From a virus: a stretch of DNA of 27,061 nucleotides. The stretch is taken from positions 1 through 27,061 of the IMG/VR virus record IMGVR_UViG_3300029787_000263. The stretch is one strand, 5' to 3'. The first letter of the stretch is position 1. Each line of letters begins with the position of its first letter. This document shows, piece after piece, positions 5,753 through 26,300 of this stretch. The notes under the pieces are model-generated. The model searched no databases, was not told where the DNA came from, and saw only the letters and a list, made by a program, of their open reading frames with translations. The translations under genes and the position numbers were made by a program.

Positions 5753-8700
5753 ATTACTACTGGTATTGATGCGAGGGTACAGATACAACAAATATTAGAA
5801 AATCAACTTCCCGAATTTCTTTTATCTGAAAACCCTAAAGCAGTAGAATTTTTAAAACAATACTACATCTCTCAAGAGCATAGAGGTGGGCCGACTGATC
5901 TTGTCGATAATTTAGATCAATATTTAAAATTAGATAATTTAACACCCGAAGTTATTGTTGGAATCACATCTTTAAGTGTTGGGATTGGTACCACTGCTGC
6001 ATTAAATTCTGTTAATGTATCAAGTACAAAGGGATTTCCAGATAAAAATGGTTTATTTAAGATAAATGATGAAATATTTACATATACTGGATTAACTACC
6101 AATACATTTACAGGAGTCACTCGTGGATTTAGTGGTATTACTTCATATAGAGCAGATAATTCTCCAAATGAATTAGTATTTTCACAATCTACACCTTCTA
6201 CTCATGCAGGTGATTCTACTGTTATAAATTTAAGTTCTCATTTTTTAAAGGAATTTTATAATAAAATAAAGTTTACTCTTACACCAGGATTAGAAGATAC
6301 AAGTTTTGTGTCCAATCTTGATGTAAGTAATTTTATAAAAGAGTCAACATCACTATACAGATCAAAAGGAACTGAAGAATCTTTCAAAATACTGTTTGGT
6401 TCCTTATATGGAGTTGATCCAAAGATTGTAGATCTTGAAGATTACTTGCTTAAACCTTCCACTGCAGAATTTACTCGAAGAGAAGTTTTAGTTGTTGAAA
6501 GAATATCTGGTGATCCAAATAAACTAGTAGGACAAACTGTTAGAAAATCAACTGATGTTAGAACACAAGGTTCTGTATCAGAAGTTGAAATATTCAGCAG
6601 ATCCTTTGGTAGGACTGGGATTAGCACATATTATAAATTAAATTTATTTGTAGGATATAATGATGAATCTCTTATTGAAGGTACATTTACAGTACCAGGT
6701 AAGACAAAGGTAATTGGTAATGTATCAGTTGGTTCATCTGTAATTACTGTTGATTCAACTGTAGGATTTGGAACAACAGGTACATTTATATGTGGAGTTA
6801 ATACTGCTGTAAATTATACTGAAAAGACTGTTAACCAATTCCTAAACTGCGACGGAATTACAACACAAATTTATTCAACTGATAATTTGAGATCTGATGA
6901 ATTTATTTTTGGATATGAAAATGGTGATATAAGCAAAAAAGTAGAAATGAGAATAACAGGTGTTATTAATGATTTTGTTCCAATATTAAACACAAATAAA
7001 TCTTCCATCGGTGAAAAAATTAGTGTTAGAAATCTTGGAGAGAGTATACCTAATCCATCAGTAAATAAAACATATAAAGAAATATTTGCAAATTCGTGGA
7101 TTTACAATACATCATCCACTTTTGAAATAGATAAAATAAATGGAACATCATTTACATTAAAATCAGATACTGATAAATCAAGTTTAAAAATAGGTGATAA
7201 TGTAGAAATAATTCTTCGTAAACAATATTCAATAAGTGCTACTGGTGTAATAGGTGATATTGATGTATCAAATACAAAACAAATTACAGTAAACAATCTC
7301 ACCTTTGTTGGTATAACTACACAAGGTTTCCTTGAAACAGAAATACATGATTTAAGAAGAGTTTTAAATAAAGCGACTAGTACTGTAACTCCAATTCAAT
7401 ATGGTAATAATGTTGTTACAACTGATGTTCAGAATGTATATAATGAACTTGATGATAATTTTTATGTGGCATCTAACTCTTTACCATCTTATAATATAAA
7501 CGTAGGAACATCAAAAACTTTCATATCGCAAGCAAAGGGGACACAAAATAATGGAACTCAATTACAACAATTTAATGCTGCGACTTCCAAATATCAAATT
7601 ATATCATTTCCAGGTCCTGTTCCATTTTTAACTGGTGATGAAATTGTTTACACATCAGGTATCTCAACAGACCCAATTCAGGGTTTAGAATCAGGTAACA
7701 CATATAATGTAAAGGTTTTAGGTAATACTAACCAAATTAAAATATATAAATCACTTTCGTTTATTGTAGGTGATGATTTTGTAGAAATTACAGAACCACT
7801 TGGACTTGGTGCTAATGCTACTCATACTTTTGAATTAGCAACTCAAGCAAATAAGAACATAGGACCTGAAAAGGTTTTAAAGAAATTTCCTATAGGACAA
7901 GATGTTAGATCTGGAGATGGTGTAAAGACAAATCCTGGTTCTGTTGGAATGTTAAAAAATGGTGTTGAGATATTAAGTTATAAGAGTGAAGATAAAATAT
8001 TTTTTGGATCTATAACCAATTTAAACGTCTTAAACACTGGTTTTAATTATGATGTGATCAATCCACCTACGATTGATTTAACAGATCCTCCAGTCGGTAT
8101 TGGGACTGGTACAAAGGCATTGATTCAACCTGTTGTTTCTGGAGAAGTTACAAATATAGTTGTAGACCCACAAGAGTTTGATTTAATTGATGTGAAGTCA
8201 ATTACTATAACTGGTGGTAATGGTGAAGGAGCAGTTTTCCAACCATTTTTAACTCAAAGATATAGAGAAATAAGTTTTGATGCTCGCCAATCATATTTAC
8301 CTGGTGATGGTGGAGTTGATATTCAACATGATCAACTTGAGTTTATTAGAGAGCATAACTTACACAACGGACAAGCATTAGTTTATGATCGTAATGGTAA
8401 TGCAGAATTAGGAATTGGAACAACTGGTGGAGGATTTGGAGGATCTGATACAGATTCAGGAAGAACATTAAAAGATGGTAGTGTATATTACCCACAGGTT
8501 GTTGGTTTAAGTTCAATAAGACTTTATGAAACTGTTTCTGATTTCCAAGCAGGTATTAATACAGTTGGATTCACAACAATATCTACAAATGGTATTCATA
8601 AATTTAGAATGTATGAACCACAAAATACTCTAAATTCAGTAAAAGTTTTAAATTCTGGTAGTGGTTATACAAACAGACAATTAATAGTAAAACCATCTAA

Positions 8701-11700
8701 TGTATCTACAATTGATAATACAATTACTTTTGAAAATCATGGATTTAAAAATGGTGAAAAAATAATATATTCAAGCACTGGATCACTTGTAACAGGATTA
8801 TCAACTACAATTCAATATCAAATTATTGAAATTGATGATAATACTTTTAGACTTGCAGATGCTGGAGTTGGTGGAACTATAACTACAAACTATACAAGAA
8901 AAGAATATGTAAAAATTACTGGTATTGGAACTGGTTCACACACATTTAAATATCCATCAATACAGTTAAATGTAGAAGTTGAGTATGTGGGAGTTTCTAC
9001 AGGTCCTACAGGAATCAATACTACTCCAGTTGGTATTCTTACAGTAACACCTCTTATTAGAGGTACTATTGATCAGACTTATGTTTATGAAGGTGGTGCA
9101 GGATATGGATCAACTGTTCTTAACTTTGAGAGAAAACCACTTGTTACTATTAAAAATGGTAAGAAGGCTGAACTAAAACCAATTATTGCAAATGGTAAAA
9201 TCATCACTGTTCAGGTACAAAAAGGTGGTGAAGAATATAATGCTGCTCCAGATTTAGAAGTTGTTGGTTTTGGAACCGCAATCGGTGCAAAATTAAGAGC
9301 AGTGGTTGAAAATGGTGAAATTGTAAACGTTGTCGTTATAAAATCTGGTATTGGATATGCTACTACCAATACATCAATTAAAGTTACTGCACCTGGTTCT
9401 GGTGTTATTTTAGAACCAGATGTAAGAGGATTATCAGTAAGTAGATTTGATAGATTTGGTGATGAATTATTAACCGAATCAGAAAATGCCACAGATCAAC
9501 TTCGTTATAGTCTTGTTGGATATCCTGCAAATGTCAGAGTTGCTTTAGGAGATACTGGAGCATCACATTCTCCTATTATTGGTTGGGCATATGATGGAAA
9601 TCCAATTTATGGTTCATATGGATATACAACCTCAAATGATGAGAATTCTACTATCGGAATTATAACTTCAAGTTATAAATCTAATGCTGCAAATATTGTT
9701 GATAGACCAGTTGGATTTTCAACAGGATTTTTTGTTGAAGATTATGCATTTGATGCATCTGGTGATTTAGATGAAAGTAATGGTAGATATTGTAAGACAC
9801 CTGATTTTCCAAATGGAATATATGCATACTTTGCTTCTATAGGAGTTAATCCATCTAATAATGTTGTTGAAACTACATTCCCTTATTTTATTGGAGATGT
9901 TTATAGATCAAATCCTATCGATGAAAATTTCTCAATCAATCAAGAAAACTTTGAATTTAATTCATCAGATTTAATTAGAAATACCTTCCCTTACGGACTT
10001 GCTGACAATTTTGCTGATAATGATTTTATTGTTGAATCGAATGAGTTAGTAGAACAAACAGCAGAGATAGAATCAACAACTAAAGGTAATGTTACATCAT
10101 TTAGTGTTGTAAGTCCTGGTATTGGTTATACTGTTGGAGAGGGAGTTTTATTTGATAATACGGATACCGAGGGTAATGGTCTTAATGGGGAAATTGGTAG
10201 AATTACTGGTAAATCAATTATTGATATTAATACTACAATAAGTACATATCAAGATGTAGTATTTGTTTGGAACAGTCCAAATCAAATATCTGGATACATA
10301 TCAACATCACATACTTTAAATCAAAATGATAACGTTGTTGTATCTGGTGTATCAACTTACATTAAAAATCTAACTAATTCTCATAATATTGGAGTTGAAA
10401 CTGCAAGAACTGTTTTATATAAGGACATTCCTACAAATAATACTGCTGGTATTGTAACTGATATATTTGTATCAAGTATTCCAAATAATGTTTCTGTTGG
10501 TAGTAGTATTGGTATAGGAACTGAAAAATTCTTGGTTCTACAGAAATTTGATGATAGAGGTGTTTTAAGAGTTAAAAGAGGTGTAACTGGTTCTGCTCAT
10601 ACAACATCAACTTTAGTTGAATTAATTCCTAGTTTCTTCTCATTACCAGTAAAGAGTGATTACTTTGATTCTAAAGTAAATGATAAAGTATATTTCAATC
10701 CAGTAAGTTCTGTTGGTGTAAGTACAAACGTTGGAATTGGTACAACATTAAGTTATACTGTCGGTGAAGTTGAAACTATAATTGATGCACAAGCTCAAAG
10801 CATATACTTACCTAATCATCCGTTCAAAACAAGTCAAGAAGTTACATTCACAAAATTAGGACCACAGAATGCAATAACTGTATCTAATACTTCTGGTGGT
10901 GCTCAATTTAATATTCCATTACTTGGAAATACCCAAACTCTTTATATAATCAATAAATCAAAAGATTATATTGGTCTTACCACCCAAAGAGAGTTAGCAT
11001 CAACTAGTGGTGGTCTTTTGTTTGTTTATAATGGATCTGATAATAATGAATATCTTTTAGAATCTAATTTTACTCAAGTTACTGCAAAAACACAAAAGAT
11101 TACATCAAAAGTAGCAGTTTCAACCTCACATGGTTTACTTAATAATGATGTTATTAATTTAACAGTAAGTCCTAATCAATCAGGAGTAACTACAGTTAAA
11201 TATGATGCATCTTCAAATAAATTATTAATTAATCCAATTTCATTTACAAATTCATCAGTAAGAACTAATGATTTGAATTTAAGTAAGCACAAATTTAAAA
11301 CAGGTGAAAAGGTATTCTATGATGGAAGTGCTGTTGGGTTGTCTACTGGATCTTACTATGTTTATAGAGTTGATGATGATATTATACAATTAGGAAAAAC
11401 CAGATATGATGTTGTTACATTTCCACCAAACGTAGTTGCAATAACAACAAATACAGGTGGATCTGGACAAGAACTATCTAAAATTAATCCAGAAATAGAA
11501 GTCGTTAAAAATAATAATATTACATTTGATTTATCAGATAGTTCTTTAAATGACTATAACTTTAAACTTTTTTATGATAATGAATTTAATAATGAGTTTA
11601 TATCTACAGGATCTACAGAAACATTTGCAGTAACTGGTGCAGGTACTACAAATCTTACATTAACTTATCAAAATACAAATCCTGTCGAATTATTCTATTC

Positions 11701-14700
11701 TATAGAAAAATCTGGGTTTATAAGCACATCTGATACTGATGTAAGTAATAGATCAAAAATATTATATGTTGATAGTGAATATGATTCATCATATTCTGTA
11801 TTTGGTGTTGGAACAACTACCTTTAATGTTTCATTATCAGGAGAACCAGAATCTTTATCATATACAACTTCAAATATTGGTATTGGTACATTTAAATATT
11901 CCACATCATCTAAAAATACAACAGGTGGTGTAGACCATGTTAAATTAAACTTTGGTGGATATGGATATCAAACACTACCTGTATTTGTTAGTATGGCATC
12001 TACCACTGGATCTGGTGGACAAGTTATTCCGTTATCAAATAATATTAACCAAATAAAATCAGTTAAGATATTAGATCCTGGTTTTGAATATTCATCAGAT
12101 AAAACTTTAAGACCTGAAGCATCAATATCACCATCAATTACAGTAAGAAATTCAAATCAAATTACTAAAATAGATGTTTTATATGGTGGAAGAAATTATC
12201 AAAGTGATCCAATTTTAGTAATAGTAGATCCTGAAACAAAACAAGTTGTCAATACAGGTGCTATAGAACCAGAAATAACAGGAAATTCAATAACAGATGT
12301 TAATATTATTTCTTTACCAAATGGGTTAAAACCATTAACTCACTCAATTTTTGCTACTAGCAATAGTAATGGATTCTCTATTCAAACTGTTGTTGGTCCT
12401 TCAACTACTAATATCACTGGAGTTGTAACATGTGCTTTAGTTACTCCAACACTAGGTTTTAGTAATAGTCCACCTCCTTTTGCTGTTGGAGATCAAATAT
12501 ACGTAGAAGGAATACAAAAATTTAGTTCAATTGGTGATGGATTTAATTCAGAGGATACTGGATTTAACTTCTTTACTATCAGCAAGTATACTGCACAAAA
12601 TGCTCAAACAGGATTAGCAGAAGTAGAATTTGACTTAACAGAATTCACATCTAATACAGGTATTGCTGTAACAGATCAAAAGGGATTCGCATCGATTATT
12701 AAATATGATGATTATCCTCGTTTTGAAGTAACTCAAAATTCCTCACAATTTATAACAGGTGAAGAAGTTGTAGTATTGATTAATGGAGTTTATACATCTC
12801 AAGGATTAAGTGTTGCAGAAAGTGATGGAGAAAATCTTAAAGTATATGGAATTTACAGATTGTCTGTAAATGATACTCTAAAAGGTGTTTTAAGTGGAAC
12901 CATTGCTACAATTAATACTCTAGTGAGAAACACTGGAAGATTTGATGTAGATTATTCTTTAGAGAAAAATAATGGTTGGTCTAATAATATTGGTAAGTTA
13001 AGTGAAGATTATCAGGTATTACCTGACAATGATTATTACCAGAATCTATCTTATAGTATAAAGAGTCCTATAGGATATGAAGAATTTGTAAATCCAGTTA
13101 ACAGACTTGTTCATACTAGTGGATTAAAGAATTTTGCTGATACTGGAATCACAACATCAATTGGTGTTGGTAGAACGACTAACGAAAATATAAGTGTGAT
13201 TGTTCGTGATTTGATTGATGAAAGAAGAGTTGATACAATCAATAATTTTGATTTAGTTCTTGATACAGACAGTCTTGCAAATAAATCTAGATTCTTAAAA
13301 TTCAAAAATATTAAACTTTCTGATTATATTAATAACAAAACTAATAGAACTTTACAAATTGATGATATTAGTCCCCTATTTTCTAACTCTGAAGTTTCAA
13401 CACAAGGATTTAGTCAATTAATTGTTCCTGAAGACTTTGCTAGATTTTTAGTACAACTAAAAAATCCAAATACAAATGAAAGTCAACTTACTGAACTTTT
13501 AGTTTATAGAGATAATAACGATACATTTACTCTTGAAAAGGGTAGTTTATTTACAGGATCAAATGAATTGGTATCTGTAACAGGTGACGAAACTGTTCTT
13601 AAATTTACACCAGCAGATATTTTCAATGATGATTTTGATATTAAAGTATTAAAGAGTTCTGTGATAAGCACTATTGCAGGAATTTCTACAAGATCTGTTG
13701 GATTTGTAAATTTAGTAAGTTCTAATAGAGTTGTTGGATCTGGTGTTACTTTTGAAATTATTGCAAATTCAAGTTCTAGTCTTGACTCTTATTTTGTTAC
13801 TTCTGAAATAAAAGATCAAACAACAAACGAAAGAAGCGTTGTTGAACTTTATGTAACTCATGATGATACAAATTCCTATGTAACTCAATACTTTGCTGAT
13901 AGTGGAATATCAAGTGCTTTCTCATCAAACTTCATTGGCACATTTACTTCAAGTTTAGAGTCTGGTGTCATTTCATTAAATTATGAAAACACTTCATCAA
14001 ATCAAGTAGATGTGAGATCCAGAATAGTTGGGTTTGGAACTACTGCTACTGGTATATCAACTTATCATTTTACTGCAAATAATCAAACTGCTGGAACAGA
14101 AAGAAGTTTAAAATATGAATCCAAGTTCTTTAATATAACAAATTCCAATTCAAATACATCATATGGTCATGGTGTAGGAATTGATACTTCTATAATCACT
14201 GGTGTTAAGAGTATGATTAGAGTGTCACTGGGTGGTACTAGTGCTGTTCACCAAACATTACTCATGTTTGATGGCAGTGATACTCATTTATTACAATATC
14301 CATTTGTTTCAATAGGAACAACATCTGGAATCGGAACCTTTACTACATCATCTTCGGGTGGAAAAACATTCTTGAAATTTAATCCTGAATCTGCATTTAA
14401 CGGTTCAAGTATAGAAGTACGACAATATGATGAAATAATTTACACTGAATCAGATTCATTTAATATCCCATCAGATTTACTGTATGGTCAAATTTCAGAA
14501 TCCATAACTTTAGTTGGATATAATGCTATTAATGGTAATAGAATTAATAGAACATCTTTTGATCTAAAATATCTCGGAACTTCTATTTTTGAAAAAACCT
14601 TTGATCCTTCAGATACTTCAATATTAAATCCAGCAACAGGAACATTTACAATACCAAATCATTTCTTCAGAACTGGTGAAAAATTAATTTATACTCCTAA

Positions 14701-17700
14701 ATCAACCTTAACTGGTATAGGTAGTACTGCTATGCAGCATGTTTCTGGTACAGATTTACCTGAAGACGTATTTGCTATTAGAACTAATAAAGATCAATTT
14801 AGATTAGCAACATCAGCAGCAAATGCAAATGCTGGTACAGGTGTTACATTCTTAAGTCTTGGTAGTGGAAATGTTCATGAATTAGAAATGGACTTAAAGA
14901 ATGAAAAAGCACTAATGTCAATTGATGGTATTATACAGTCACCAATCGCATTTACACCAGTAAGCACAACATTAACAAGTAATGGTGCTCATATTTCTAC
15001 AAGCAGAACTATATTTGAAGTAGCAGGTATAGCAACAATTACTTCAAATGACATTGTTAAAGTAGATGATGAATACATGAAGGTTGTATCTGTTGGTATC
15101 GGAACAACTGCATTAGGTCCTATAAGTGGATCTGGATCTGCCAACTTATTAGAAGTTGAAAGAGGATTTGTTGGATCATCAGCAACAGCTCACGCTGATA
15201 CTGCTGTTGTTAGAAGGTATGTGGGATCTTATAATATTGTTAACGGTCAAGTACATTTTGTAGAATCTCCATTAGGATCGAGCACAACACAATTAAATCA
15301 ATTAAATTTACCATTTGCAAGATCTACATTTAACGGAAGAGTATATTTAAGAGATGATTATACAACAAACGCAATTTTTGACGATATATCAACAGAATTC
15401 ACTGGAATAGGACAAACTTTTGCAATTACAAAAGAGGGAGTTGGTATAGGTTCAACATCACTATTGATAGGAAGTTCTCTTTTAGTTGTAAATGGTATGT
15501 TCCAAAAACCAACTACAGTTAATAACACAGGTAATAATTATTCTTTTGCTGCAGTTGGAACTACAGAATCAAATATTATATTTACAGGTATAACATCTGA
15601 TGATAATTCTACAATTATAGATCAAATAGATGTCAATCAAAACCAATTACCTAGAGGTGGTAAAATTGTATCACTTGGATTTACAGGTGGATTAGGTGTT
15701 GCACCATTAGTAGGATCAGTTGTTCATCCTGTCATAGGTGCTGCTAAATCAATATCTGAAATAGTTGGTATTCCAACTTCTGATGTTGATATATCTTTAG
15801 GAATTGCTACAGCATCCTATAACAATAGAACTGGATTATTAGAAGTTACTACAGTTAAATCTCATAAGTTTAGAACTACAAATGAGCAGGTTAGATTAGT
15901 TGGTCTTGAATTTACTTGTAGTGGAAGTTTCAGTGTTTCCGATGCAGATTATGATCCTTATACTGGTGTATTAAATCTAACCATAGGTCAACATAATTTA
16001 CAAGTTGGTACAAATGTTGGAATTGCTACATCATCTTTAGTATTCCAATGTAGTAAAGACAATTATGGTAGTGAACATAGTTATCCTCGTCATGGAATTG
16101 ACCCAATTGCTGGAATTGGTACACCTATTATTGCTGCAACAAGTCAAACTATCACTATTAATGTTGGAATAGGAACTACCGCTGGTGACAGATATCTTCA
16201 CAAGTATGTAAGTGGTGGAACAGTGACATTTGGTACTGATCACATTGGTGTAACTACTACAATATTCCCAGATTCTACTAATGATCGCCCATTCTCAATC
16301 ACTGGAATAACATCTGAAAAAACATTTACTGCTGATGTTGGAATATGTACAATTCCACATACTTACGTTGGACAGGGAACTGCTTCTCCGTATTATTCAG
16401 ATTTAACATTCGGTTCAGGATATCGTGGATCAGTTGCAATTGGAATTACTGATGAAGTTTACAATCATAAGTTTGTTAGAGCAGGTATTAATTCAATTAC
16501 TGCAAATACTGGTGCAACATTTACTCCTACAAATGCAATCTATGAATCTCATACTGGTCAATTATTATTAACTATTGCAAATCATGGTTTAGTTGCTGGT
16601 ACAAATACAATTGGTATTTCAACAGAATCATTAGTCTTTAGTTGCTCAAGAGACAATTATAAAACTGATCATGGTTATCCACGTACAACTGATCCTGCAC
16701 ATAATGCCAATTTAGCAATTGGTGCTACTTCAATTAATACTCTTACTGTAAATGTCGGACCTGGTGGTGGATCTGGAACAGGTGCAAATATAACTGCTAC
16801 AGTTGGTCTTGGTGGAACTCTTGCATATGCAATAGGTGCTGGTGGTACTGGTTATATTAATCCAATTGTATTAGTACCACAACCAGCATATGAGAATCTA
16901 TCTGTGACTGGTATTTCTAGATTGGGTGTTGGAGCAACAACAGATACTGGTGTTGGGCAATTAGTTAATATTGAAGTTGGTCCATCTGGTATTGTAACTG
17001 GTATAGGATCTACTTTATCAACAGCAATATCATTTAATGTTATGAGAGAAGGACACTCATTTAAAATTGGAGATAAATTCAAACCTGTAGGATTAGTAAC
17101 AGCAAGAGGTGTTACAACCATGACTGATGTTGAATTTACTGTTTTAGATACATTCTCTGATAGGTTTACATCATGGAACTTTGGACAATTCGATTACATT
17201 GACAATACAAGCGATCTTCAAAATGGTGTTAGAACAAGATTCCCCTTAAGATATAACGGTGAATTATTATCATTTGAAATAGATCCTACAGATGCAGACT
17301 CTCAACTTATAGATTTGGATAGTTTATTATTAATATTCATTGATGGTGTAATTCAAAATCCTAAAGAAGCATACACATTTGAAGGTGGAACTACATTTAC
17401 ATTTACAAATGCTCCAACTCCTGAAGATAATATTGATATATTCTTCTTTAGAGGAACAACTGGTGAAGATAGTACTGCTGTTTCAGTTAAAGAGACGATT
17501 AAAAAAGGTGATGTATTACAAGTATCTAATTTAGGTATAACAACTGCACAAACATCTAGAACTGTTGCTGGTATCACTACTTCTGATACTTTACAAACAA
17601 ATGTTTATGTTGGATTGGGTATAGATGAAAATAATTACAAACCTCTTAATTGGACAAAACAAAAGACTGATAAGATCATAAATGGCGAAATTGTCTATAA

Positions 17701-18685
17701 ATCTAGAAATTCTATTGAAACATTAGTATATCCATCAGCGAAAATTATAAAAGATGTATCAACAACTGATAATGCAATCTATGTGGATAATGCTCAATTC
17801 TTTAATTATGAGGAAAACGAATCATCTATTAATATACTTGATCAAGTATCTGGATTAATTCTTCCATCTGTAGATCCAGTTGGTGCTGGTATAACTGCGG
17901 TAATTGCTGCCAATGGTACAATTTCATCGCTTGTAATTAACAATGGTGGTAGTGGATATGTTGGATCATCTGCTACAATATCCATTGCATCTCCCGTAGG
18001 AGTAGGAACAACTGGTACTGCAACAGTTACTGTAAGTAATGGTGCTATAAATGGATTTACAATTACTAACGCTGGAGGTGGATATTCAGTATCAAATCCA
18101 CCAGCAGTGATTGCATCTTTCCCTAAATTCTCAAATGAAGTTGTTGCTTCAATTGAAACTATTGAAGGATTTTCTGGTATCGTAACTGGTATTACTACAA
18201 CCACTGTAGGAGTATCAACACTAGGATTGAAGTTCTTCTTGAATAAACCAGCATCTAACTGGGGAAATCTTTCTGCAGGTGATCCGATATATATCTATGA
18301 CACTACAATCGGTGCAGGTGTAACATCACTTGCCACTAGTGGTATTGATGGTAATGTTGTTGGAATAGGAATTTCCTTCTTCGATAATATATACCATATA
18401 CAATCTATAACCTCATCAGGAACTAATGCTGAAATAATTACAAACATTCATTCAAATGCTGGATCGAGTGTAAGTGGTATTTCATCTCTTGGTTCAGTTG
18501 AAATGGGTAAATTCTCATGGGGTAAATTATCTACCGTGACTAGATCATCAACACCTATATCAATAGGTGTAACTGGACTTACTGTTGGACTAGCAACAGC
18601 GTCTGGAATATCCACATTCCCAACCATCCAAAGACGTAATTATGGCATCAATAATGGCGGTGCGTTAAAAGCGGATCTTGGGTAG
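5750..18685 (+). CDS. Giant modular baseplate/virion protein in the gp7 position (4311 aa)
   Basis: This uninterrupted 4311-aa protein lies between gp6 and gp8, exactly where T4 has gp7 (1032 aa), the wedge-initiating subunit. The N-terminus (1-55) is helical with LPEFLLSENPKAVEFLKQYY. A beta module (about 65-155) interrupts it, and then comes SLYRSKGTEESFKILFGSLYG (about 201-221), a helical phage baseplate signature. The rest is beta-rich mosaic: at least twelve GGxGY-type repeats, several HxFxxGExxxY turns, a YHYH-like domain (about 1270-1390), recurrent [DE]E...RG and NGxxQxP modules, and a tandem repeat near 3357-3680. Glycine-rich G[IVF]GT turns recur throughout. There is no signal peptide or transmembrane segment. 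The late-promoter candidate upstream and the shared ribosome binding junction tie it to gp25 and gp6. I infer a wedge protein whose C-terminal mosaic forms extended peripheral structure, perhaps fibre- or receptor-facing. Direct homology to T4 gp7 is not obvious to me. Confidence 0.85.
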   Translation: MITTGIDARVQIQQILENQLPEFLLSENPKAVEFLKQYYISQEHRGGPTDLVDNLDQYLKLDNLTPEVIVGITSLSVGIGTTAALNSVNVSSTKGFPDKNGLFKINDEIFTYTGLTTNTFTGVTRGFSGITSYRADNSPNELVFSQSTPSTHAGDSTVINLSSHFLKEFYNKIKFTLTPGLEDTSFVSNLDVSNFIKESTSLYRSKGTEESFKILFGSLYGVDPKIVDLEDYLLKPSTAEFTRREVLVVERISGDPNKLVGQTVRKSTDVRTQGSVSEVEIFSRSFGRTGISTYYKLNLFVGYNDESLIEGTFTVPGKTKVIGNVSVGSSVITVDSTVGFGTTGTFICGVNTAVNYTEKTVNQFLNCDGITTQIYSTDNLRSDEFIFGYENGDISKKVEMRITGVINDFVPILNTNKSSIGEKISVRNLGESIPNPSVNKTYKEIFANSWIYNTSSTFEIDKINGTSFTLKSDTDKSSLKIGDNVEIILRKQYSISATGVIGDIDVSNTKQITVNNLTFVGITTQGFLETEIHDLRRVLNKATSTVTPIQYGNNVVTTDVQNVYNELDDNFYVASNSLPSYNINVGTSKTFISQAKGTQNNGTQLQQFNAATSKYQIISFPGPVPFLTGDEIVYTSGISTDPIQGLESGNTYNVKVLGNTNQIKIYKSLSFIVGDDFVEITEPLGLGANATHTFELATQANKNIGPEKVLKKFPIGQDVRSGDGVKTNPGSVGMLKNGVEILSYKSEDKIFFGSITNLNVLNTGFNYDVINPPTIDLTDPPVGIGTGTKALIQPVVSGEVTNIVVDPQEFDLIDVKSITITGGNGEGAVFQPFLTQRYREISFDARQSYLPGDGGVDIQHDQLEFIREHNLHNGQALVYDRNGNAELGIGTTGGGFGGSDTDSGRTLKDGSVYYPQVVGLSSIRLYETVSDFQAGINTVGFTTISTNGIHKFRMYEPQNTLNSVKVLNSGSGYTNRQLIVKPSNVSTIDNTITFENHGFKNGEKIIYSSTGSLVTGLSTTIQYQIIEIDDNTFRLADAGVGGTITTNYTRKEYVKITGIGTGSHTFKYPSIQLNVEVEYVGVSTGPTGINTTPVGILTVTPLIRGTIDQTYVYEGGAGYGSTVLNFERKPLVTIKNGKKAELKPIIANGKIITVQVQKGGEEYNAAPDLEVVGFGTAIGAKLRAVVENGEIVNVVVIKSGIGYATTNTSIKVTAPGSGVILEPDVRGLSVSRFDRFGDELLTESENATDQLRYSLVGYPANVRVALGDTGASHSPIIGWAYDGNPIYGSYGYTTSNDENSTIGIITSSYKSNAANIVDRPVGFSTGFFVEDYAFDASGDLDESNGRYCKTPDFPNGIYAYFASIGVNPSNNVVETTFPYFIGDVYRSNPIDENFSINQENFEFNSSDLIRNTFPYGLADNFADNDFIVESNELVEQTAEIESTTKGNVTSFSVVSPGIGYTVGEGVLFDNTDTEGNGLNGEIGRITGKSIIDINTTISTYQDVVFVWNSPNQISGYISTSHTLNQNDNVVVSGVSTYIKNLTNSHNIGVETARTVLYKDIPTNNTAGIVTDIFVSSIPNNVSVGSSIGIGTEKFLVLQKFDDRGVLRVKRGVTGSAHTTSTLVELIPSFFSLPVKSDYFDSKVNDKVYFNPVSSVGVSTNVGIGTTLSYTVGEVETIIDAQAQSIYLPNHPFKTSQEVTFTKLGPQNAITVSNTSGGAQFNIPLLGNTQTLYIINKSKDYIGLTTQRELASTSGGLLFVYNGSDNNEYLLESNFTQVTAKTQKITSKVAVSTSHGLLNNDVINLTVSPNQSGVTTVKYDASSNKLLINPISFTNSSVRTNDLNLSKHKFKTGEKVFYDGSAVGLSTGSYYVYRVDDDIIQLGKTRYDVVTFPPNVVAITTNTGGSGQELSKINPEIEVVKNNNITFDLSDSSLNDYNFKLFYDNEFNNEFISTGSTETFAVTGAGTTNLTLTYQNTNPVELFYSIEKSGFISTSDTDVSNRSKILYVDSEYDSSYSVFGVGTTTFNVSLSGEPESLSYTTSNIGIGTFKYSTSSKNTTGGVDHVKLNFGGYGYQTLPVFVSMASTTGSGGQVIPLSNNINQIKSVKILDPGFEYSSDKTLRPEASISPSITVRNSNQITKIDVLYGGRNYQSDPILVIVDPETKQVVNTGAIEPEITGNSITDVNIISLPNGLKPLTHSIFATSNSNGFSIQTVVGPSTTNITGVVTCALVTPTLGFSNSPPPFAVGDQIYVEGIQKFSSIGDGFNSEDTGFNFFTISKYTAQNAQTGLAEVEFDLTEFTSNTGIAVTDQKGFASIIKYDDYPRFEVTQNSSQFITGEEVVVLINGVYTSQGLSVAESDGENLKVYGIYRLSVNDTLKGVLSGTIATINTLVRNTGRFDVDYSLEKNNGWSNNIGKLSEDYQVLPDNDYYQNLSYSIKSPIGYEEFVNPVNRLVHTSGLKNFADTGITTSIGVGRTTNENISVIVRDLIDERRVDTINNFDLVLDTDSLANKSRFLKFKNIKLSDYINNKTNRTLQIDDISPLFSNSEVSTQGFSQLIVPEDFARFLVQLKNPNTNESQLTELLVYRDNNDTFTLEKGSLFTGSNELVSVTGDETVLKFTPADIFNDDFDIKVLKSSVISTIAGISTRSVGFVNLVSSNRVVGSGVTFEIIANSSSSLDSYFVTSEIKDQTTNERSVVELYVTHDDTNSYVTQYFADSGISSAFSSNFIGTFTSSLESGVISLNYENTSSNQVDVRSRIVGFGTTATGISTYHFTANNQTAGTERSLKYESKFFNITNSNSNTSYGHGVGIDTSIITGVKSMIRVSLGGTSAVHQTLLMFDGSDTHLLQYPFVSIGTTSGIGTFTTSSSGGKTFLKFNPESAFNGSSIEVRQYDEIIYTESDSFNIPSDLLYGQISESITLVGYNAINGNRINRTSFDLKYLGTSIFEKTFDPSDTSILNPATGTFTIPNHFFRTGEKLIYTPKSTLTGIGSTAMQHVSGTDLPEDVFAIRTNKDQFRLATSAANANAGTGVTFLSLGSGNVHELEMDLKNEKALMSIDGIIQSPIAFTPVSTTLTSNGAHISTSRTIFEVAGIATITSNDIVKVDDEYMKVVSVGIGTTALGPISGSGSANLLEVERGFVGSSATAHADTAVVRRYVGSYNIVNGQVHFVESPLGSSTTQLNQLNLPFARSTFNGRVYLRDDYTTNAIFDDISTEFTGIGQTFAITKEGVGIGSTSLLIGSSLLVVNGMFQKPTTVNNTGNNYSFAAVGTTESNIIFTGITSDDNSTIIDQIDVNQNQLPRGGKIVSLGFTGGLGVAPLVGSVVHPVIGAAKSISEIVGIPTSDVDISLGIATASYNNRTGLLEVTTVKSHKFRTTNEQVRLVGLEFTCSGSFSVSDADYDPYTGVLNLTIGQHNLQVGTNVGIATSSLVFQCSKDNYGSEHSYPRHGIDPIAGIGTPIIAATSQTITINVGIGTTAGDRYLHKYVSGGTVTFGTDHIGVTTTIFPDSTNDRPFSITGITSEKTFTADVGICTIPHTYVGQGTASPYYSDLTFGSGYRGSVAIGITDEVYNHKFVRAGINSITANTGATFTPTNAIYESHTGQLLLTIANHGLVAGTNTIGISTESLVFSCSRDNYKTDHGYPRTTDPAHNANLAIGATSINTLTVNVGPGGGSGTGANITATVGLGGTLAYAIGAGGTGYINPIVLVPQPAYENLSVTGISRLGVGATTDTGVGQLVNIEVGPSGIVTGIGSTLSTAISFNVMREGHSFKIGDKFKPVGLVTARGVTTMTDVEFTVLDTFSDRFTSWNFGQFDYIDNTSDLQNGVRTRFPLRYNGELLSFEIDPTDADSQLIDLDSLLLIFIDGVIQNPKEAYTFEGGTTFTFTNAPTPEDNIDIFFFRGTTGEDSTAVSVKETIKKGDVLQVSNLGITTAQTSRTVAGITTSDTLQTNVYVGLGIDENNYKPLNWTKQKTDKIINGEIVYKSRNSIETLVYPSAKIIKDVSTTDNAIYVDNAQFFNYEENESSINILDQVSGLILPSVDPVGAGITAVIAANGTISSLVINNGGSGYVGSSATISIASPVGVGTTGTATVTVSNGAINGFTITNAGGGYSVSNPPAVIASFPKFSNEVVASIETIEGFSGIVTGITTTTVGVSTLGLKFFLNKPASNWGNLSAGDPIYIYDTTIGAGVTSLATSGIDGNVVGIGISFFDNIYHIQSITSSGTNAEIITNIHSNAGSSVSGISSLGSVEMGKFSWGKLSTVTRSSTPISIGVTGLTVGLATASGISTFPTIQRRNYGINNGGALKADLG
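8034..9430 (+). repeat. GGxGY beta-module array, first cluster in the giant gene
   Basis: Related segments of the form [ST]GxGY followed by a short strand occur near 8034 (NTGFNYD), 8652 (NSGSGYT), 9092 (EGGAGYG), 9223 (KGGEEYNAAP) and 9344 (KSGIGYA). They are typically followed by a stretch ending in NG[EK]I[IV]x[VI]xV. The last three sit close together (43 and 40 codons apart). DNA identity is low, so this is an old protein-level repeat and not a recent duplication. Confidence 0.65.
9530..9905 (+). other. YHYH-like domain inside the giant protein
   Basis: The segment contains HSPIIGWAYDGNPIYG (starting at residue 1273), then LDESNGRY, then PNGIYAYFAS, then FPYFIG. This is the order of conserved blocks in the YHYH domain family as I know it. 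At the position of the signature tetrad the sequence is YAYF (residues 1358-1361, bases 9821-9832), so both histidines are absent. Function of the family is not established. Confidence 0.7.
11951..12235 (+). repeat. GGxGY beta-module array, second cluster in the giant gene
   Basis: Three spaced copies are seen: FGGYGYQTLP (about 11951), LDPGFEYSS (about 12076) and YGGRNYQSDP (about 12183). Each starts a short beta unit that ends in a strand such as ILVIVDP. An isolated copy, SPGIGYTVG, lies at about 10110. Confidence 0.6.
14910..15513 (+). repeat. NGxxQxP and [DE]E...RG modules in the giant gene
   Basis: The NGxxQxP module appears as SIDGIIQSP (about 14918), VVNGMFQKP (about 15487) and, further on, FIDGVIQNP (about 17336). 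The last is followed by AYTFEGGTTFTFTNAP. The second recurrent module, an acidic DE/TE hairpin then an RG turn, appears near 6065-6135 (NDEIFTYTG ... RGFSG), 10516-10590 (GTEKFLVLQ ... RGVTGS) and 15062-15180 (DDEYMKVVS ... RGFVGSS). Their reuse shows internal module duplication in the protein. Confidence 0.55.
15818..16786 (+). repeat. Tandem ~198-residue repeat in the giant protein
   Basis: Two clear copies share YxxxTGxLxLTIxxHxLxxGTN, then SLVFxCSxDNY, then HxYPR, then DP, ending in a TxNVG or TVNVG strand. The CS of copy 1 is at 16049 and of copy 2 at 16643, a spacing of 594 bases or 198 codons. A degenerate half copy precedes them (15818-15920; YNNRTGLLEV ... LEFTCS). Conserved Cys, Asp and His could form a metal or structural site. 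HKYVSGG- and HKFVRAG-type segments between the copies look related to each other. Confidence 0.7.
16838..18110 (+). repeat. GGxGY beta-modules near the giant protein C-terminus
   Basis: Copies occur as GAGGTGYINP (about 16838), NNGGSGYVGS (about 17941) and NAGGGYSVSNPP (about 18071). The last two are a close pair separated by a strand with GTATVTVSNGAING. They resemble the gp8 and DUF4815-protein copies most closely. Confidence 0.6.
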
Positions 18686-18693
18686 TATAAATA
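18686..18693 (+). promoter_or_regulatory. Perfect T4-type late promoter (TATAAATA) before gp8
   Basis: TATAAATA starts one base after the giant gene stop and ends 19 bases before the gp8 ATG. It matches the T4 late consensus exactly. It would let gp8 and the genes after it be made independently of the 13-kb giant gene. Confidence 0.75.
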
Positions 18694-18712
18694 TAGAAAA
18701 AAGCTGACAATA

Positions 18713-20305
18713 ATGGCTGCAATTGTAACAGATCAATTTAGAATATTAAACGCAAGTAACTTTGTAGAGTCCGTTGAGAACTCTTCAAATTCATATTATG
18801 TCTTTGCTAGTCTTCCTAATCCTGCTCCAGCAACAGTCGGATTTGGAAGAACTGGTTCAGATGTAGCAAATTATAATTCTAATGTCCCATCTCCAGTAGA
18901 TAGTATTAATAATACTAATCATGTTTCCGATACAATGTTATTCGGTAGAAGAATTGGTGATGCCAATGTAAGAAGATTGGTTAAAAAACGTACTTGGACA
19001 TCAGGTACCACTTATGAAATGTATCGTCATGATTATTCAATTAATACACAATCTCCTCTAACACAAGAGTCTAGACTTTATGATACAAACTACTATGTAA
19101 TGAATAAAGACTTTAATGTCTATATTTGTGTTGATAATGGATCATCAGGAATTAATACAAATGGTAATGCATCTAAAGACGAACCATTATTTACTGATGT
19201 AGAACCAAGTAAGGCAGGTGAAAGTGGTGATGGATATATTTGGAAGTACTTATTTTCTGTAGCACCAAACGACATTATTAAGTTTGATTCTACAGACTTT
19301 ATAGCAGTTCCTAATAATTGGTCATCTTCAACTAATGCACAAATAACTGCAGTTAGAGATAATGGAAATTCTTTAGTAAATAATAACCAAATTAAAAAAG
19401 TTTATATTGAAAATCAAGGATCTGGATATTCACCAAACATCAGTGGTTTGGAAGTTAATATATTAGGAGATGGTAGTGGTGGAAAAGTTGTTGTAGATAC
19501 AAACAATCTTGGTAAAATTACAAGTGCTACTGTATCTGCTGGTGGTAAAGGATATAGTTTTGGTATGGTTGACTTGGGAACCATAAATTCTGGTGTTTCA
19601 ACTGTTAATGCTGCTAAATTAGTTCCAATCATTCCACCATCAAATGGACATGGTTATGATCTTTATAAGGAACTTGGTGCAGATAAAGTTTTAGTATATG
19701 CTCGTTTTGACGATTCTACAAAAGATTTTCCAATTGATACAAAATTTGCTCAAATTGGAATAATTAAAAATCCAAATCAAGCAGGATCATCAACAACTAC
19801 ATTTACAGATGCTAAATTTTCATCTTTATCTGGCATTAAATTTAGTAGTGTAAGTGGAACATTACCTACTGCTGGAACTGTAATTAGACAAAGACAGGTA
19901 AGTAGTGGTGGAGATACTGCTAAAGGTTATGTTGCATCGTATGATTCTGAAACTATGGTTTTAAAGTATTTTCAAGATAGATCATTATTCTTTAATCAAG
20001 ATACTGACGACCAATCTGATTATGTTGGAGTATCTACAAGTGCAAAAATTGAACCGTTTTTATCTTCAGTCGATGCTGTAGAAACTTCTGAAGGTTTTTC
20101 TGGTACAATTGATACTACATTTACTGATAGTAAAGTTAATCCAACTGGTAATAAGGTTATCAGTCTAGATACAGAGTTTACATCAGGTCTCTCAATTCCA
20201 GAGATAAATAAAGGAACAGGTGATATAATTTATCTGGATAATCGACCACTTATCTCCCGAAACTCAAGGCAGAAGGAAGACATCAAAGTTATATTGGAAT
20301 TTTAA
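18713..20305 (+). CDS. gp8: gp8-like baseplate wedge subunit, enlarged
   Basis: The N-terminal part (1-205) carries T4 gp8 family features: FRILNASNFVESVENSSNSYYVF at the N-terminus, the DTMLFGRRIGDANVRRLVKKR block (about 73-93), TSGTTYEMYRHDY, YVMNKDFNVYICVDN, and GDGYIWKYLFSV (about 172-183). In T4, gp8 is a 334-aa wedge protein that dimerises and joins gp7 and gp10. This one has 530 aa. The extra length includes two GGxGY modules at about residues 235-285 (IENQGSGYSP and SAGGKGYSFG) that match those in the neighbouring giant protein. The rest of the C-terminal part (about 315-530) is beta-rich and ends in a region with RPLISRNSRQKEDIKVILEF. The gene sits 28 bases after the giant gene and behind a perfect late promoter. 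Confidence 0.9.
   Translation: MAAIVTDQFRILNASNFVESVENSSNSYYVFASLPNPAPATVGFGRTGSDVANYNSNVPSPVDSINNTNHVSDTMLFGRRIGDANVRRLVKKRTWTSGTTYEMYRHDYSINTQSPLTQESRLYDTNYYVMNKDFNVYICVDNGSSGINTNGNASKDEPLFTDVEPSKAGESGDGYIWKYLFSVAPNDIIKFDSTDFIAVPNNWSSSTNAQITAVRDNGNSLVNNNQIKKVYIENQGSGYSPNISGLEVNILGDGSGGKVVVDTNNLGKITSATVSAGGKGYSFGMVDLGTINSGVSTVNAAKLVPIIPPSNGHGYDLYKELGADKVLVYARFDDSTKDFPIDTKFAQIGIIKNPNQAGSSTTTFTDAKFSSLSGIKFSSVSGTLPTAGTVIRQRQVSSGGDTAKGYVASYDSETMVLKYFQDRSLFFNQDTDDQSDYVGVSTSAKIEPFLSSVDAVETSEGFSGTIDTTFTDSKVNPTGNKVISLDTEFTSGLSIPEINKGTGDIIYLDNRPLISRNSRQKEDIKVILEF
19405..19580 (+). repeat. GGxGY beta-module pair inserted in gp8
   Basis: Two copies, ENQGSGYSP (about 19411) and SAGGKGYSFG (about 19537), flank a glycine-rich strand pair (LGDGSGGKVVVD, then LGKITSATVS). 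The arrangement repeats the close pair at 17941-18071 of the giant gene. Confidence 0.65.
20203..20210 (+). promoter_or_regulatory. Candidate internal late promoter (GATAAATA) upstream of the DUF4815 gene
   Basis: GATAAATA lies inside gp8, 98 bases before the next ATG, and fits NATAAATA. The placement parallels CATAAATA at 5649-5656 inside gp6. It could be chance in an AT-rich coding region. Confidence 0.35.
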
Positions 20306-20308
20306 GAA

Positions 20309-23300
20309 ATGCCACAAAAAACTAATTTAAACATAAGTCCATATTACGATGACTTTGATAAGACTGATAATTTTTATAAAGTCTTATTTAAGCCAGGATT
20401 TCCAGTACAAGCAAGAGAATTAACATCATTACAATCAATATTACAGAATCAAGTTGAATCATTTGGTTCTCATATGTTCAAAGAGGGATCAATGGTGATT
20501 CCTGGTGGTATTGCATATGATTCAGAGTATTATTCAATTAAACTTAATTCAGAACATTTAGGTGTTCCTATCTCATTATATGTTGATAAATTAGTTGGAT
20601 TAAGATTAACAGGTCAAAATTCAGGTGTAAGTATCGTAATTGACAAATATTTGTTACCATCAGATTCTACAGAAGTATCAGATATTACATTCTTTATCAA
20701 ATATGTAAGTTCAGGTGCTAATAATGATGGTTCTTCTCTAGAAGATGGTGAAAGATTATTAACTGAAACTACATTTGCTTATGGTAATACGGTGTTTAAC
20801 GTGGGTGATAGTGTAGTAACTCTTATATCTGATAATGCTTCTTCAGTTGGTTCAGCAGCAGCAATATCAAACGGTGTTTACTTTATAAGGGGAACTTTTG
20901 TTGATGTATCTGCAGATAAAATAGTTTTAGATCCATATACAAATACACCATCATATAGAGTTGGTTTAAGTATTCAAGAAGAATTAGTAACTGCTAAAGA
21001 TGATGATGGTTTATATGATAATGCCAGAGGATTTACTAACTTTGCAGCACCAGGTTCTGATAGATTAAAAATAGCTCTCATTTTAACAAAGAAATCTATT
21101 AACGATACAAGTGATAAAACATTCGTAGAATTATTAAGATTAGATCAAGGAGAAGTTAAAGTATTAAATAATAAACCTCAATATAATTTAATTCGTGATT
21201 ACTTTGCAAAAAGAACTTTTGAAGAGTCTGGAGATTATACTGTAGAAGGTTTTGGAGTTCAAGTTGCTAATTCATTAAATGATGGTTTATCAAATGAGGG
21301 TGTATTTAAATCTGACCAAAAAACAGATCAAGGTATAGAACCAACTGAAGATTTAATGGCAGTTAAGGTATCTCCAGGTAAGGCATATGTTAGAGGATTT
21401 GATATTGATAAAGCAGGAACAACAATATTAGACGTAGAAAAACCAAGAGATAAGGGAAAAGTAGATTCTGCTTTAGTTCCTTTGGCATTAGGAAATAAAA
21501 TAAAGGTTAATAATGTACAGGGAACACCATTTATAGGTATTAACAATAATCATACCATTAGTTTATCTAATTCAAGATTGGGATCTGGTACTATTACAGG
21601 TGCTCCTGGTACTGTAATTGGAGAGGCAAGAGTATATTCATTTAGTTTAAGTGATGCTGCCTATAGTAATGATGCTACTTCATGGGATCTATACTTATTC
21701 GATGTACAGACATATACTCAAATAACAACTAATTTAGCACTTTCTAATACTGAATTACCTGCAACTTCATATGTTGAAGGTATTAGTAGTGGTGCTTTTG
21801 GATATGCTGTAAGTCAGGGTGGTGGAAATACATCTCATATGTTAGTCCAAACTTCTGGAACATTTATAAAAGGTGAACCAATTAGAATTAACGGATCTAT
21901 TGAAATTCCTAGATCCATTGAAGAAGTAAAAGTATTTGGAACTCAAGATATCAAATCAGTGTATCAAAATGCTGGTGGTTCTGGAGGAATCATTGATACA
22001 TCAACAGTTGACTTTGCTGCTGATACAGTCTTAAGTCGTGTAATACCAAAAGGATTTACCGTTGCAGATCAATTAGTAATTAACTCTGCTGGTATTACAA
22101 GTTGTGCTGGAAAGAATTTCTTGGGTATTAAGAGTGATACTATTATTCGCTATCAACGACCTAATTTTGGCGAGATATTTAACAGAGTTCGCCATGTATC
22201 TGCAGATGGATTAACAATGGATCTTGATGCAGTTGAAAATGTAACAGGAGTTTGTACTGGTGCAATACCTGCTACTGGACAAGAGACTGTAACTTTCTCA
22301 ATTGGTAGACCATCTATAACAAATGACGAAGATTCTGGTTTATTTGCTCCATTATCTAATGAAAATATATCTGACATTAATCTATCACAATCAACTCTAG
22401 TTGTATCAAAACAACTTACAGGAAAATCTACTGGTGCTGCTGGTACATTTTCATTGTACGTAAGTGATCTTACTGGAATTTCAAGTGCTTTTTATGAGAA
22501 TTTTGATGAGGATAGATATTCAATTCATTATTCAGATGGTGCAATAGAAGATCTTACATCTGACCAATTCACATTAAGTGCTGATGGAACAACTGTAAAT
22601 TTAACAGGATTAAGAACTGGTCAAAATAATGTAGTTATAAACAGCACTGTAAGAAAAAAAGATATTGTAAGTAAACAGAAAAACTTTGTAAGAAGTGATA
22701 AAATTACAATAGACAAAACAGTTTCTGCTGCTTCTACAGAGGCAGGTGGATTAACTGTGAATAGTTACTACGGTTTAAGAGTTGAAGATAAAGAAATATC
22801 ATTAAACGTTCCAGATGTTATTAATATTGTCGGTGTTTTTGAATCTGTAGATACCTCTGCACCTTCTTTTGATAAATTAACATTCATATCTGGATTAAGT
22901 TTAGATACAACATCGATTCTTGGAGAAAAAATTATTGGGTCTGTAAGTGGAGCAATCGCACAAATTACAAATAGAACTTCAGCAACTCAAGTTGAAATTG
23001 TATATCTAACTCAAACTAAATTTAATATTGGTGAAACAGTTACTTTTGAAGAGTCAAACATTACTACAAATTTACAGAATATAACTTATGGTGTCTATCA
23101 AGATATTTCAGATAGATTTACTTTAGATAAAGGTCATAAAGAACAATATCTAGATTATTCTAGAATTGTAAGAAGTGCTGGATTCCCTAAACCAACAAGA
23201 AAAGTTACTGTAGTTTTCAACCGTTATGATGTTCCATCAACTGATAATGGTGATATATTTACTGTTTCCTCTTATGATCTTGATAGATTTACAAAAGATA

Positions 23301-26300
23301 TTCCAATATTAGAAAATAATATCAGAGCATCCGATACACTTGATTTTAGACCAAGAGTATCTTCTTTAGCATCTGGAATAACAACAGCATCTCCATTTGC
23401 ATTTTCAATGAGAGCATTTGGTGTTTCTGGAAATAATCCAACATTAGTTGTATCTCCAGAAGAAAGTTCTATATTAGGATATAGTTTCTATCTACCACGA
23501 ATTGATAAAGTTGTTTTAGATAGTTTAGAAAATTTATCTGTTATTAAAGGAGTATCTTCTCTTGATCCAAAAGAACCTTTAAATGTTGAAGCTGCAATGA
23601 CAATTGCAACTATAGAATTACCTGCATACTTATATGATCCTGATGATGCTAAAGTCATTATGATTGATAATAAGAGATTTACTATGAGAGATATTGGTAA
23701 ATTAGAAGATAGAATTGAAAATTTAGAAACAATTACTTCTTTAAGTTTACTAGAATTAGATACAAAAACACTACAAATACAGGATGCTGATGGATTATCA
23801 AGATTTAAAACAGGTTTCTTTGTAGATGATTTTAAAGATAATAATTTACTTGATATAACAAATCCAGATTGTAAGTGTGATGTTAATTCTGAAACAAAAG
23901 AATTGGAAACACCTCTTGATTTCTATTCAATTAAACCAGAAATTGCCCTTCTTCCAACATTAAATTCGGATGAAGTTGATCTATCTGCAGATTTAGAATT
24001 ACTTGATTCAAATCTTAAGAAAACTGGTGATATTGTCACATTAGATTATAGCGAAACAACACTTCTTGATCAACCATTAGCGTCTAGAACAGAAAACGTA
24101 AACCCATTTAACATCGTTAAGTTTGATGGAATAGTCACATTAAATCCAGCAGCAGATAACTGGACTCGTAATGTATTCATTCAAGGTGGTGAGAGAACGG
24201 TCACAGGAGATACAGAAGGAACATTTATTACTGAAGTTAAAAGTGGTAGCAGACCTGATGACCATATACGCTCAAGAAACGTAAAGTTTGAAGCAAATGC
24301 ACTTAAACCATTCACAAGATACTATCCATTCTTTGATGGCACCAGTGGAATTGATATTATTCCAAAACTAGTAGAAATTACAATGGTATCTGGTTCTTTC
24401 CAGTCTGGTGAAACTGTAACTTCAAATGATAATGATATTATTTGTAGAATTTGTCAACCAAATCATAAAACAGGAGATATAAATTCACCATCCACTACAT
24501 TTGCAAACAATCCATATAATACATCTATCACACTTCCAACAGGATATTCAGCATCTGCTACAGTTCTTAACGTTGATATAGCATCATTAGCAGAAGAAGC
24601 ACAGGGTAGATTCTTTGGAAGAATTGAAAATGGAATGACATTACTAGGTCAAACCAGTGGTGCAATTGCTACTGTATCTAATATTAGACTTATAAGTGAT
24701 ACTTTTGGAGATACAATTGGATCTTTCTTCTTTAGAGATCCTCTTGCAGTTCCAGAACCACCATTGAGATTTAGAAATGGTACAAGAACATTCAAATTAA
24801 CATCAAGTTCAACAAATGCAATAGCATTAGCAGGAACACCATCTATAAGCAGTGCTGAAACATCGTATAGAACTAGTGGTATTGTAGATGAATTTGTTCA
24901 AACAACGGTTACTATCAGAACTCCACCACCACCTCCTGTTCCTGTTGTAATTAACGTAACAAATATTACGCAAGAAATTACAAATGTTACAAATATCACA
25001 GAGGTACGAGTAGTACGAAATAGAGATCCATTAGCACAGACATTTACTGTGGATGAAACAGGTGCTTTCTTATCCTCCGTAGATCTATTCTTTGCAGAAA
25101 AAGATAACAATGAAAAATTACATGTTCAAGTTAGAACAACTGAATTAGGTACACCAACTAATAAAATAGTTGTTGATTATGCTCATGTTTCTCTTGAACC
25201 ATCACAAATCAATGTGTCAACTGATGCGTCAGCTGCAACAACAGTTACTTTCTCATCACCAATATACCTACAAGCAAATGAAACATATGCAATAGTTCTT
25301 CTTGCTCCAACTACAAATAATTATTTACATTGGATTGCAAGAATGGGTGAAGCAACAGTTGATACTCAAAGTTTACCTAATACTGAAAGTGTAATTATAA
25401 CAAATCAGTATCTTGGTGGTAGTTTGTTTAGATCACAAAATGGATCAATCTGGACAGCAAACCAGTTTGAAGATATGAAACTTAAATTAAACAAATGTAG
25501 TTTTACATCTACTTTAGGAACTTTATATCTTTATAATCCAAAACTTGGAAATAGAAATGCTCAAACAGCAAGATTATTACCAAATTCAATTACAACATTA
25601 CCTCGAAAGTTAAAAGTTAAAATTGATGCAACAAATAATGCAAATTTAACAATTGGAAGAAAGGTTAGTGAAGGTTCAACAACAGGACCAACTGGAATTA
25701 TTGAACAGAAAGGTGCTTCTTTAACATCTACAGCGATCACTAACGCTGGTATTGGATATTCCAATGGTTCTTTTGCTGCAGTTCCACTATATAACATCAC
25801 TGGAAATGGTACAGGTGCTCAAGCAACTATAACCATAACAAATAATATTGTTGCCAGTGTATCAGTTTCTGCTAATGGATCAGGATATGTCAAAGGTGAT
25901 ATTTTAGGAATTACTACATCAAATGTAAGCAAAGGAAAAAGTGCACAACTTTCAGTATCTGCTATTAATGCAAATACAGATACACTTTATCTTACAAATG
26001 TTCAAGGTCAAGAATTTACTAATGATGAAGATGTATTTTATTTTGCAGATAATAATACAAGAACACCAGTTCAAGCAGGTGTTATCAAAGTTGATGGTGC
26101 TTCAAGTGTTATTAGTCCTTTATATGAAGGAAACGTATTTGAAGTTCAACAGTATAGTCATGGAATGAAAGCAGATAATAACAAAGTTCAAATATCTGAT
26201 ATTCATCCTGATACTGTTCCTACACCATTGATTGATAATTCAACAATTACATCAAATACGATTAATGTTGGAGCAGCAAATACTTCATACTTTAATACTT

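Follow-up and report, generated by a model that had tools for sequence, protein, structure and literature searches.

An inserted two-unit beta module in gp8, gp7-like and DUF4815 virion proteins of a T4-like marine phage, and its possible likeness to T4 gp18 domain I

Introduction

The tail sheath protein gp18 of phage T4 carries a domain, domain I, that protrudes from the sheath, makes no sheath-sheath contact, touches the baseplate and binds the retracted long tail fibres (PMC3004832). The gp18 mutations G106S, S175F and A178V inhibit fibre retraction (PMC3004832). Another inserted domain, D3*, belongs to the tailspike depolymerase Dpo31 of the marine podovirus Carin-1 (PDB 28LX, 8CK1). The crystallographers defined D3* as an Ig-like insert comprising residues 434-536; expressed alone, it was soluble and monomeric (PMC13317679). 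They likened it to sugar-binding domains on the basis of a distant DALI likeness (Z 2.9; PMC13317679). Accessory beta domains on virions are already known, with gp18 domain I and Dpo31 D3* having been described separately.

The window analysed here, a virus record of 27,061 bases, holds the structural block of a T4-like marine phage, in which the genes for gp25, gp6, the gp7-like giant and gp8 are followed by that for a DUF4815 protein, which is cut off by the window end. The nearest relatives of its gp8 were found in Synechococcus phages such as Sf-CH5 and ACG-2014f (53-58% identity to the window gp8); a megablast search for close phage records returned none. The three proteins of interest are as follows.

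5750-18685, plus strand: giant gp7-like baseplate wedge protein, 4311 aa, with 11-12 units (phrog_2885 baseplate wedge subunit, E 0; Pfam YHYH; unit HMM)
18713-20305, plus strand: gp8 baseplate wedge protein, 530 aa (Pfam Phage-Gp8, E 2.3e-11; AlphaFold model against T4 gp8, 1n7z, VIA Z 17.0)
20309-27061, plus strand: DUF4815 protein, 2251 aa seen, open at the window end (Pfam DUF4815, E 3e-60; PDB 9euf of phage phi812, E 8.3e-42)

A PDB sequence search using the whole giant protein as the query gave nothing useful, and a literature search for DUF4815 found nothing relevant. Elsewhere in the window, a DUF6267 protein (28-933; Pfam E 2.5e-69) adjoins the tail genes, and minus-strand open frames of 88-120 aa lie opposite large genes (2639-2905, 9211-9492, 16852-17121 and 17842-18204); these frames are probably mechanical.

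Results

Repeat units in the giant, gp8 and DUF4815 proteins

A preliminary description of the window had proposed about 16 copies of a [ST]GGxGY unit, 12 of them in the giant and two each in gp8 and the DUF4815 protein, between positions 8034 and 25920. No literal [ST]GGxGY was present in the window proteins. The shorter GGxGY occurred five times (four in the giant, one in gp8; shuffled mean ~0.2) and GxGY 15 times, with nine occurrences in the giant, four in gp8 and two in the DUF4815 protein (shuffled means 1.6, 0.1 and 0.45, respectively), some of which fall outside the module. The motif was corrected to [small/P]-G-x-[G/E/N]-[Y/F] within a unit of ~42 aa, which is laid out as a strand, the motif, a strand and a glycine-rich strand.

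A profile HMM of this ~42-aa unit identified 11 units in the giant, two in gp8 and two in the DUF4815 protein. Those in the giant were located at residues 753, 959, 1105, 1149, 1189, 1446, 2059, 2100, 2136, 4056 and 4098, scattered across 3,350 residues. A twelfth giant copy, at about residue 3696, has the motif only; at this site a full pair is present in relatives at two loci. The number of copies found, 15-16 (11-12 + 2 + 2), and the span of the mapped units agreed with the earlier description, even though its motif did not hold. The units and modules are listed below.

8006-8104, plus strand: unit, giant residues 753-785 (NTGFNY; iterated unit HMM, 17.8 bits)
8624-8707, plus strand: single unit, giant residues 959-986 (GSGY; unit HMM)
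9062-9427, plus strand: run of three units immediately preceding the YHYH domain, giant residues 1105-1226 (unit HMM, 35.7, 35.6 and 27.6 bits, seed members; spacing 41-44 aa)
10085-10210, plus strand: unit, giant residues 1446-1487 (unit HMM, 30.8 bits, seed member)
11924-12283, plus strand: three consecutive units, giant residues 2059-2178 (unit HMM, seed members)
16835-16930, plus strand: motif-only unit, about giant residues 3696-3727 (GAGGTGY; motif)
17840-18169, plus strand: two-unit module at the giant C-terminus, units at 4056-4095 and 4098-4124 (AlphaFold model of residues 4031-4140, pLDDT 82.3, six strands)
19385-19603, plus strand: gp8 insert of two units, residues 225-297 (seed member of the pair HMM, E 1.1e-23; pLDDT ~90; VIA Z 5.8)
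25718-25960, plus strand: two-unit module, DUF4815 protein residues 1804-1884 (unit HMM, 37.2 and 31.5 bits, seed members)

The giant also contains other recognisable elements. A YHYH domain (residues 1257-1365, positions 9518-9844; Pfam E 6e-27) lies directly behind the first three-unit array, and a second type of repeat, TGxLxLTIxxHxLxxGTN...SLVFxCSxDNYxxxHxYPR, is present in two copies, at about residues 3385-3465 (15900-16150) and 3585-3665 (16500-16740).

Similarity among the copies

The close pairs of units in gp8, the DUF4815 protein and the giant C-terminus had been described as enclosing a similar glycine-rich strand. Smith-Waterman comparison against composition-preserving shuffles bore this out, giving z-values of 5.7 for gp8 against the giant C-terminus, 8.2 for gp8 against the DUF4815 pair and 5.4 for the giant C-terminus against the DUF4815 pair; in each comparison 0 of 500 shuffles scored as well. 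When unit HMMs were built with one protein left out, the scores obtained were low, but mostly above those of decoys. The pairs are similar to one another beyond composition, which supports the proposal that one repeat module is common to the three proteins.

No match better than E 0.014 was obtained when 14 module sequences were compared with Pfam-A. The module belongs to a family that has no Pfam model, and is not a known Pfam immunoglobulin-like or other curated family. A literature search combining the motif GGSGYT with phage returned nothing.

Occurrence of the module in related phages

The HMM search suggested in the preliminary description was carried out on cyanophages and other relatives, in which the module recurred in virion proteins. 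Among 901 ORFs of relatives, matches to the window-trained unit HMM were found nearly only in such proteins, including gp14 neck proteins, which were outside its seed. Matches were present in six of the 623 ORFs outside the four families, and for at least four of these six, either the position pointed to a gp7-like protein or the annotation to another structural protein. The matches that were checked comprised the gp5 hub lysozyme, a tail fibre and gp14; gp14 of S-SSM7 also bears the module. In whole-record profile searches, five cyanophages had 12-26 matches each, whereas four other relatives had 2-5 and T4 had 0; alignment A2 contains sequences of records L001-L004, so the counts for those records are partly training data.

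The distribution differed between carriers. Each of the 11 non-T4 phages examined had the module in both gp8 and the gp7-like protein, compared to 6/11 phages for DUF4815 and 3/6 for gp14. There was no module in T4 gp14. The sequence family is nearly restricted to virion proteins, and is absent from T4 gp8 and gp14. All three adjacent baseplate proteins of the window do carry the module, as first described, but that account was too narrow, since further virion proteins of relatives, among them gp14, gp5 and tail fibres, carry it as well.

Relationships between copies

It had also been proposed that the module was shuffled among neighbouring genes, and that a tree might group the gp8 and DUF4815 copies with specific giant copies. 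A total of 279 two-unit modules were classed by protein and site and their nearest neighbours determined. Another phage supplied the nearest neighbour, from the corresponding protein and site, for 89/89 gp8 modules, 40/40 at the giant C-terminus, 37/37 at giant 2100, 46/47 at giant 1100 and 45/46 in DUF4815. The nearest copy from outside the class came from the same phage four times, compared to 3.3 expected. In a tree of 71 columns, in which few deep forks were resolved, there were nine label changes versus 50 in shuffles. The DNA of the window copies had negligible identity and was unrelated beyond short words.

The close adjacency of the genes that bear the module, and its patchy presence in DUF4815 and gp14, are what recent shuffling or gene conversion within a phage lineage might be expected to leave. 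Such a history is nevertheless highly improbable, because the copies cluster by protein and site across phages and not by phage, out-of-class neighbours are not enriched within phages and the DNA similarity between copies is negligible; old duplications are possible. As judged from these comparisons, the spread of the module is old, and the order of the genes today does not point to recent exchange.

Predicted fold

The AlphaFold model of gp8 had a mean pLDDT of 84.6, rising to ~90 in the module, in which strands were predicted at residues 230-234, 246-252, 258-263, 269-276, 284-286 and 302-305. The giant C-terminal pair, folded in isolation, gave a pLDDT of 82.3 and strands at positions 17-22, 28-35, 44-49, 60-66, 69-77 and 89-92 of the folded piece. 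We read the six predicted strands of the giant pair as a-b-c twice, so that two units would make up one six-stranded domain; the strand order is similar in the gp8 and giant models. Each repeat would then be half of a small beta-barrel (Ig-like) domain, two a-b-c units per domain, with GxGY placed where strand b turns into strand c.

Insertion into gp8 and the DUF4815 protein

The window gp8 belongs to the T4 gp8 wedge family and shares the core fold of T4 gp8 (PDB 1N7Z; Z 17.0 over 268 residues). Its residues 2-200 align to T4 gp8 residues 9-211, and residues 496-530 to T4 300-334. Between these blocks T4 gp8 has 88 residues where the window gp8 has ~295, supporting the earlier remark that T4 gp8 has no room for the pair. 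In the AlphaFold model the surplus of ~207 residues corresponds to the module (~80) plus a second barrel (~124), neither of which is present in T4 gp8.

19826-20197, plus strand: the other insert in gp8, residues 372-495, a small, unrelated beta-barrel that resembles EF-Tu domain 2 and the N-terminal barrels of F1-ATPase (VIA Z 4-5)

The gp8-like arm protein of phi812, of 172 residues, also has no insert of this size. The baseplate protein ORF65 of phi812 (PDB 9EUF), a DUF4815 protein of 1152 aa, shares four homology blocks with the window protein, including window residues 1565-1735, whereas the window module (1804-1884) lies outside the common blocks. The gp8 surplus relative to T4, together with the presence or absence of the module in DUF4815 and gp14, is the pattern of an insertion into core proteins that work without it in other phages.

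The same data bear on whether the module is mainly a structural spacer or clamp that stabilises the large wedge proteins and has no dedicated partner. The 11-12 units spread over 3,350 residues of the giant, and the constant presence of the module in gp8 and gp7-like proteins of the 11 non-T4 phages, would suit such a part. This is rather unlikely to be the main role, since T4 gp8 and the phi812 arm protein do without an insert of this size and the presence of the module in DUF4815 and gp14 is variable.

Comparison with domain I of the T4 sheath

By VIA, gp8 residues 228-306 were superposed on T4 gp18 residues 99-185 with a Z of 5.8. Four entries of T4-like gp18 domain I were matched in all (Z 5.3-5.8, 71-73 residues, 2.9-3.1 A), values at which chance arrangements are possible. 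Foldseek and VIA searches of the PDB with the isolated giant model gave no match above noise and did not list gp18, although a likeness to gp18 is still possible; because this model had no PDB match, the structural match comes from the gp8 copy only. When compared with predicted viral structures, the giant copy had numerous matches among phage proteins, such as P22 gp10-like proteins, the Sinorhizobium phage phiM9 tail sheath, a neck protein and a protein of long tail fibres.

Direct sequence similarity to T4 was slight. The best match of the unit HMM among T4 ORFs was gp18 residues 102-118, which was weak; Smith-Waterman comparison of the window copies with T4 domain I was not significant (z 0.4-0.8), and hhalign gave a probability of 18% over only 20 columns. 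The phiM9 sheath has two units of the module, at residues 92-175, and in the sheath alignment they occupy the T4 domain-I site (T4 98-188). Sequence similarity to phiM9 domain I was clear, with z-values of 4.1-6.8, and an hhalign comparison of the 279-module profile with domain I of phiM9/LG08 covered 66 columns at a probability of 90%. The alignment of phiM9 domain I with the T4 group spanned 43 columns at a probability of 75% (z 4.0 by Smith-Waterman, with 3 of 500 shuffles scoring as well). If gp18 is numbered without the initiator Met, the T4 sequence has the expected letter at all three mutated positions, G106 being the glycine that opens GSNY, at the motif position.

In the same sheath alignment, the tail sheaths of Sf-CH5 (L001, 37987-40164) and phiM7 (L008, 35400-37214) had no T4 domain-I insert at the usual site.

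Likeness to Dpo31 D3*

Profile A2 matched Dpo31 residues 430-516 (best stretch 450-516, E 2.3e-4), a region that corresponds to the D3* insert, and profile A4, built from giant copies only, also ranked Dpo31 first (E 0.059). At the level of sequence profiles, Dpo31 provides a second, independent link for the module besides the phiM9 sheath.

These matches also weigh against the copies being convergent, low-complexity glycine-rich sequence and not one domain. Convergence is very improbable: the composition is rich in glycine, serine and threonine and the single-protein leave-one-out scores are low, as it would predict, but the composition-preserving shuffles never equalled the three pairs, the matches are nearly restricted to virion proteins, the strand order is repeated in two independent models (gp8 and the giant) and a boundary of a solved domain, D3*, coincides.

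Discussion

We favour, as a fairly probable reading, an accessory inserted barrel akin to gp18 domain I and D3* that works as an exposed docking domain. Its places of insertion would be exposed parts of core virion proteins, here gp8, the gp7-like giant and the DUF4815 protein, with gp14, gp5 and tail fibres added in relatives. The domain would belong with, or be closely analogous to, domain I of T4 gp18 and D3* of Dpo31, and most likely works as gp18 domain I does, standing out from the particle, dispensable for core assembly, with a lateral face for the docking of fibres or neighbouring proteins. Two copies have the strand pattern in their models, and the module occupies the sheath domain-I site in phiM9; surface exposure in this phage, a docking function and common descent with T4 domain I are inferred. 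The docking reading gains indirect support from the likeness to gp18 domain I, since that domain binds the retracted long tail fibres (PMC3004832). A common docking surface, also suggested in the preliminary description, is plausible by this analogy, although the carriers are not confined to neighbouring baseplate proteins. The module is probably an old, reusable surface docking part.

The main rival to docking is that the module binds glycans weakly and helps the phage in this way to stick to the host surface, a role that has been put forward for Ig-like domains of virions. It draws on the distant DALI likeness of D3* to sugar-binding domains (PMC13317679), on the suggestion that added sheath domains, which are commonly Ig-like, are adhesion aids (PMC9230969), and on the tail fibre among the module-bearing proteins of relatives. 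We consider it unlikely, given that gp14, which also bears the module, is at the neck and far from the cell surface, that the D3* likeness reaches only Z 2.9 and that T4 domain I has a known protein-binding role.

More tentatively, gp18 domain I, the Dpo31 insert and the gp8, gp7, gp14, gp5, DUF4815 and fibre modules of marine phages may all be members of one unnamed barrel family, a general-purpose part for fibre docking or side contacts that is used in many virion proteins of the Kyanoviridae and in T4 only on the sheath. In the literature examined, the gp8, gp7-like, gp14 and DUF4815 members appear to be undescribed. If the link is true, the role supported by mutations in T4, that of keeping hold of retracted fibres, could be put to the test as a hypothesis for many unexplained tail domains of marine phages, and gp7-like proteins of very large size could in part be read as strings of such domains.

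Comparison with the two described domains shows where the likeness lies. Domain I of T4 gp18 (residues 98-188; PDB 3FO8, 3FOA) is likewise inserted and has six beta-strands, with GSNY (PGSNY) where the modules have GxGY; VIA placed it on the gp8 copy over 72 residues (Z 5.3-5.8), and in phiM9 a two-unit module stands at the same site. It differs in an extra helix, which is absent from the module models, in a longer second half, in its weak direct sequence likeness to the window copies and in its host, which is the sheath, whereas the hosts in the window are gp8, the gp7-like giant and the DUF4815 protein. D3* of Dpo31 also has two GGxGY-type units in ~100 aa and also protrudes as an insert from a core virion protein; its host, in contrast, is a trimeric beta-helix tailspike, and it has been described only as Ig-like, with no family named.
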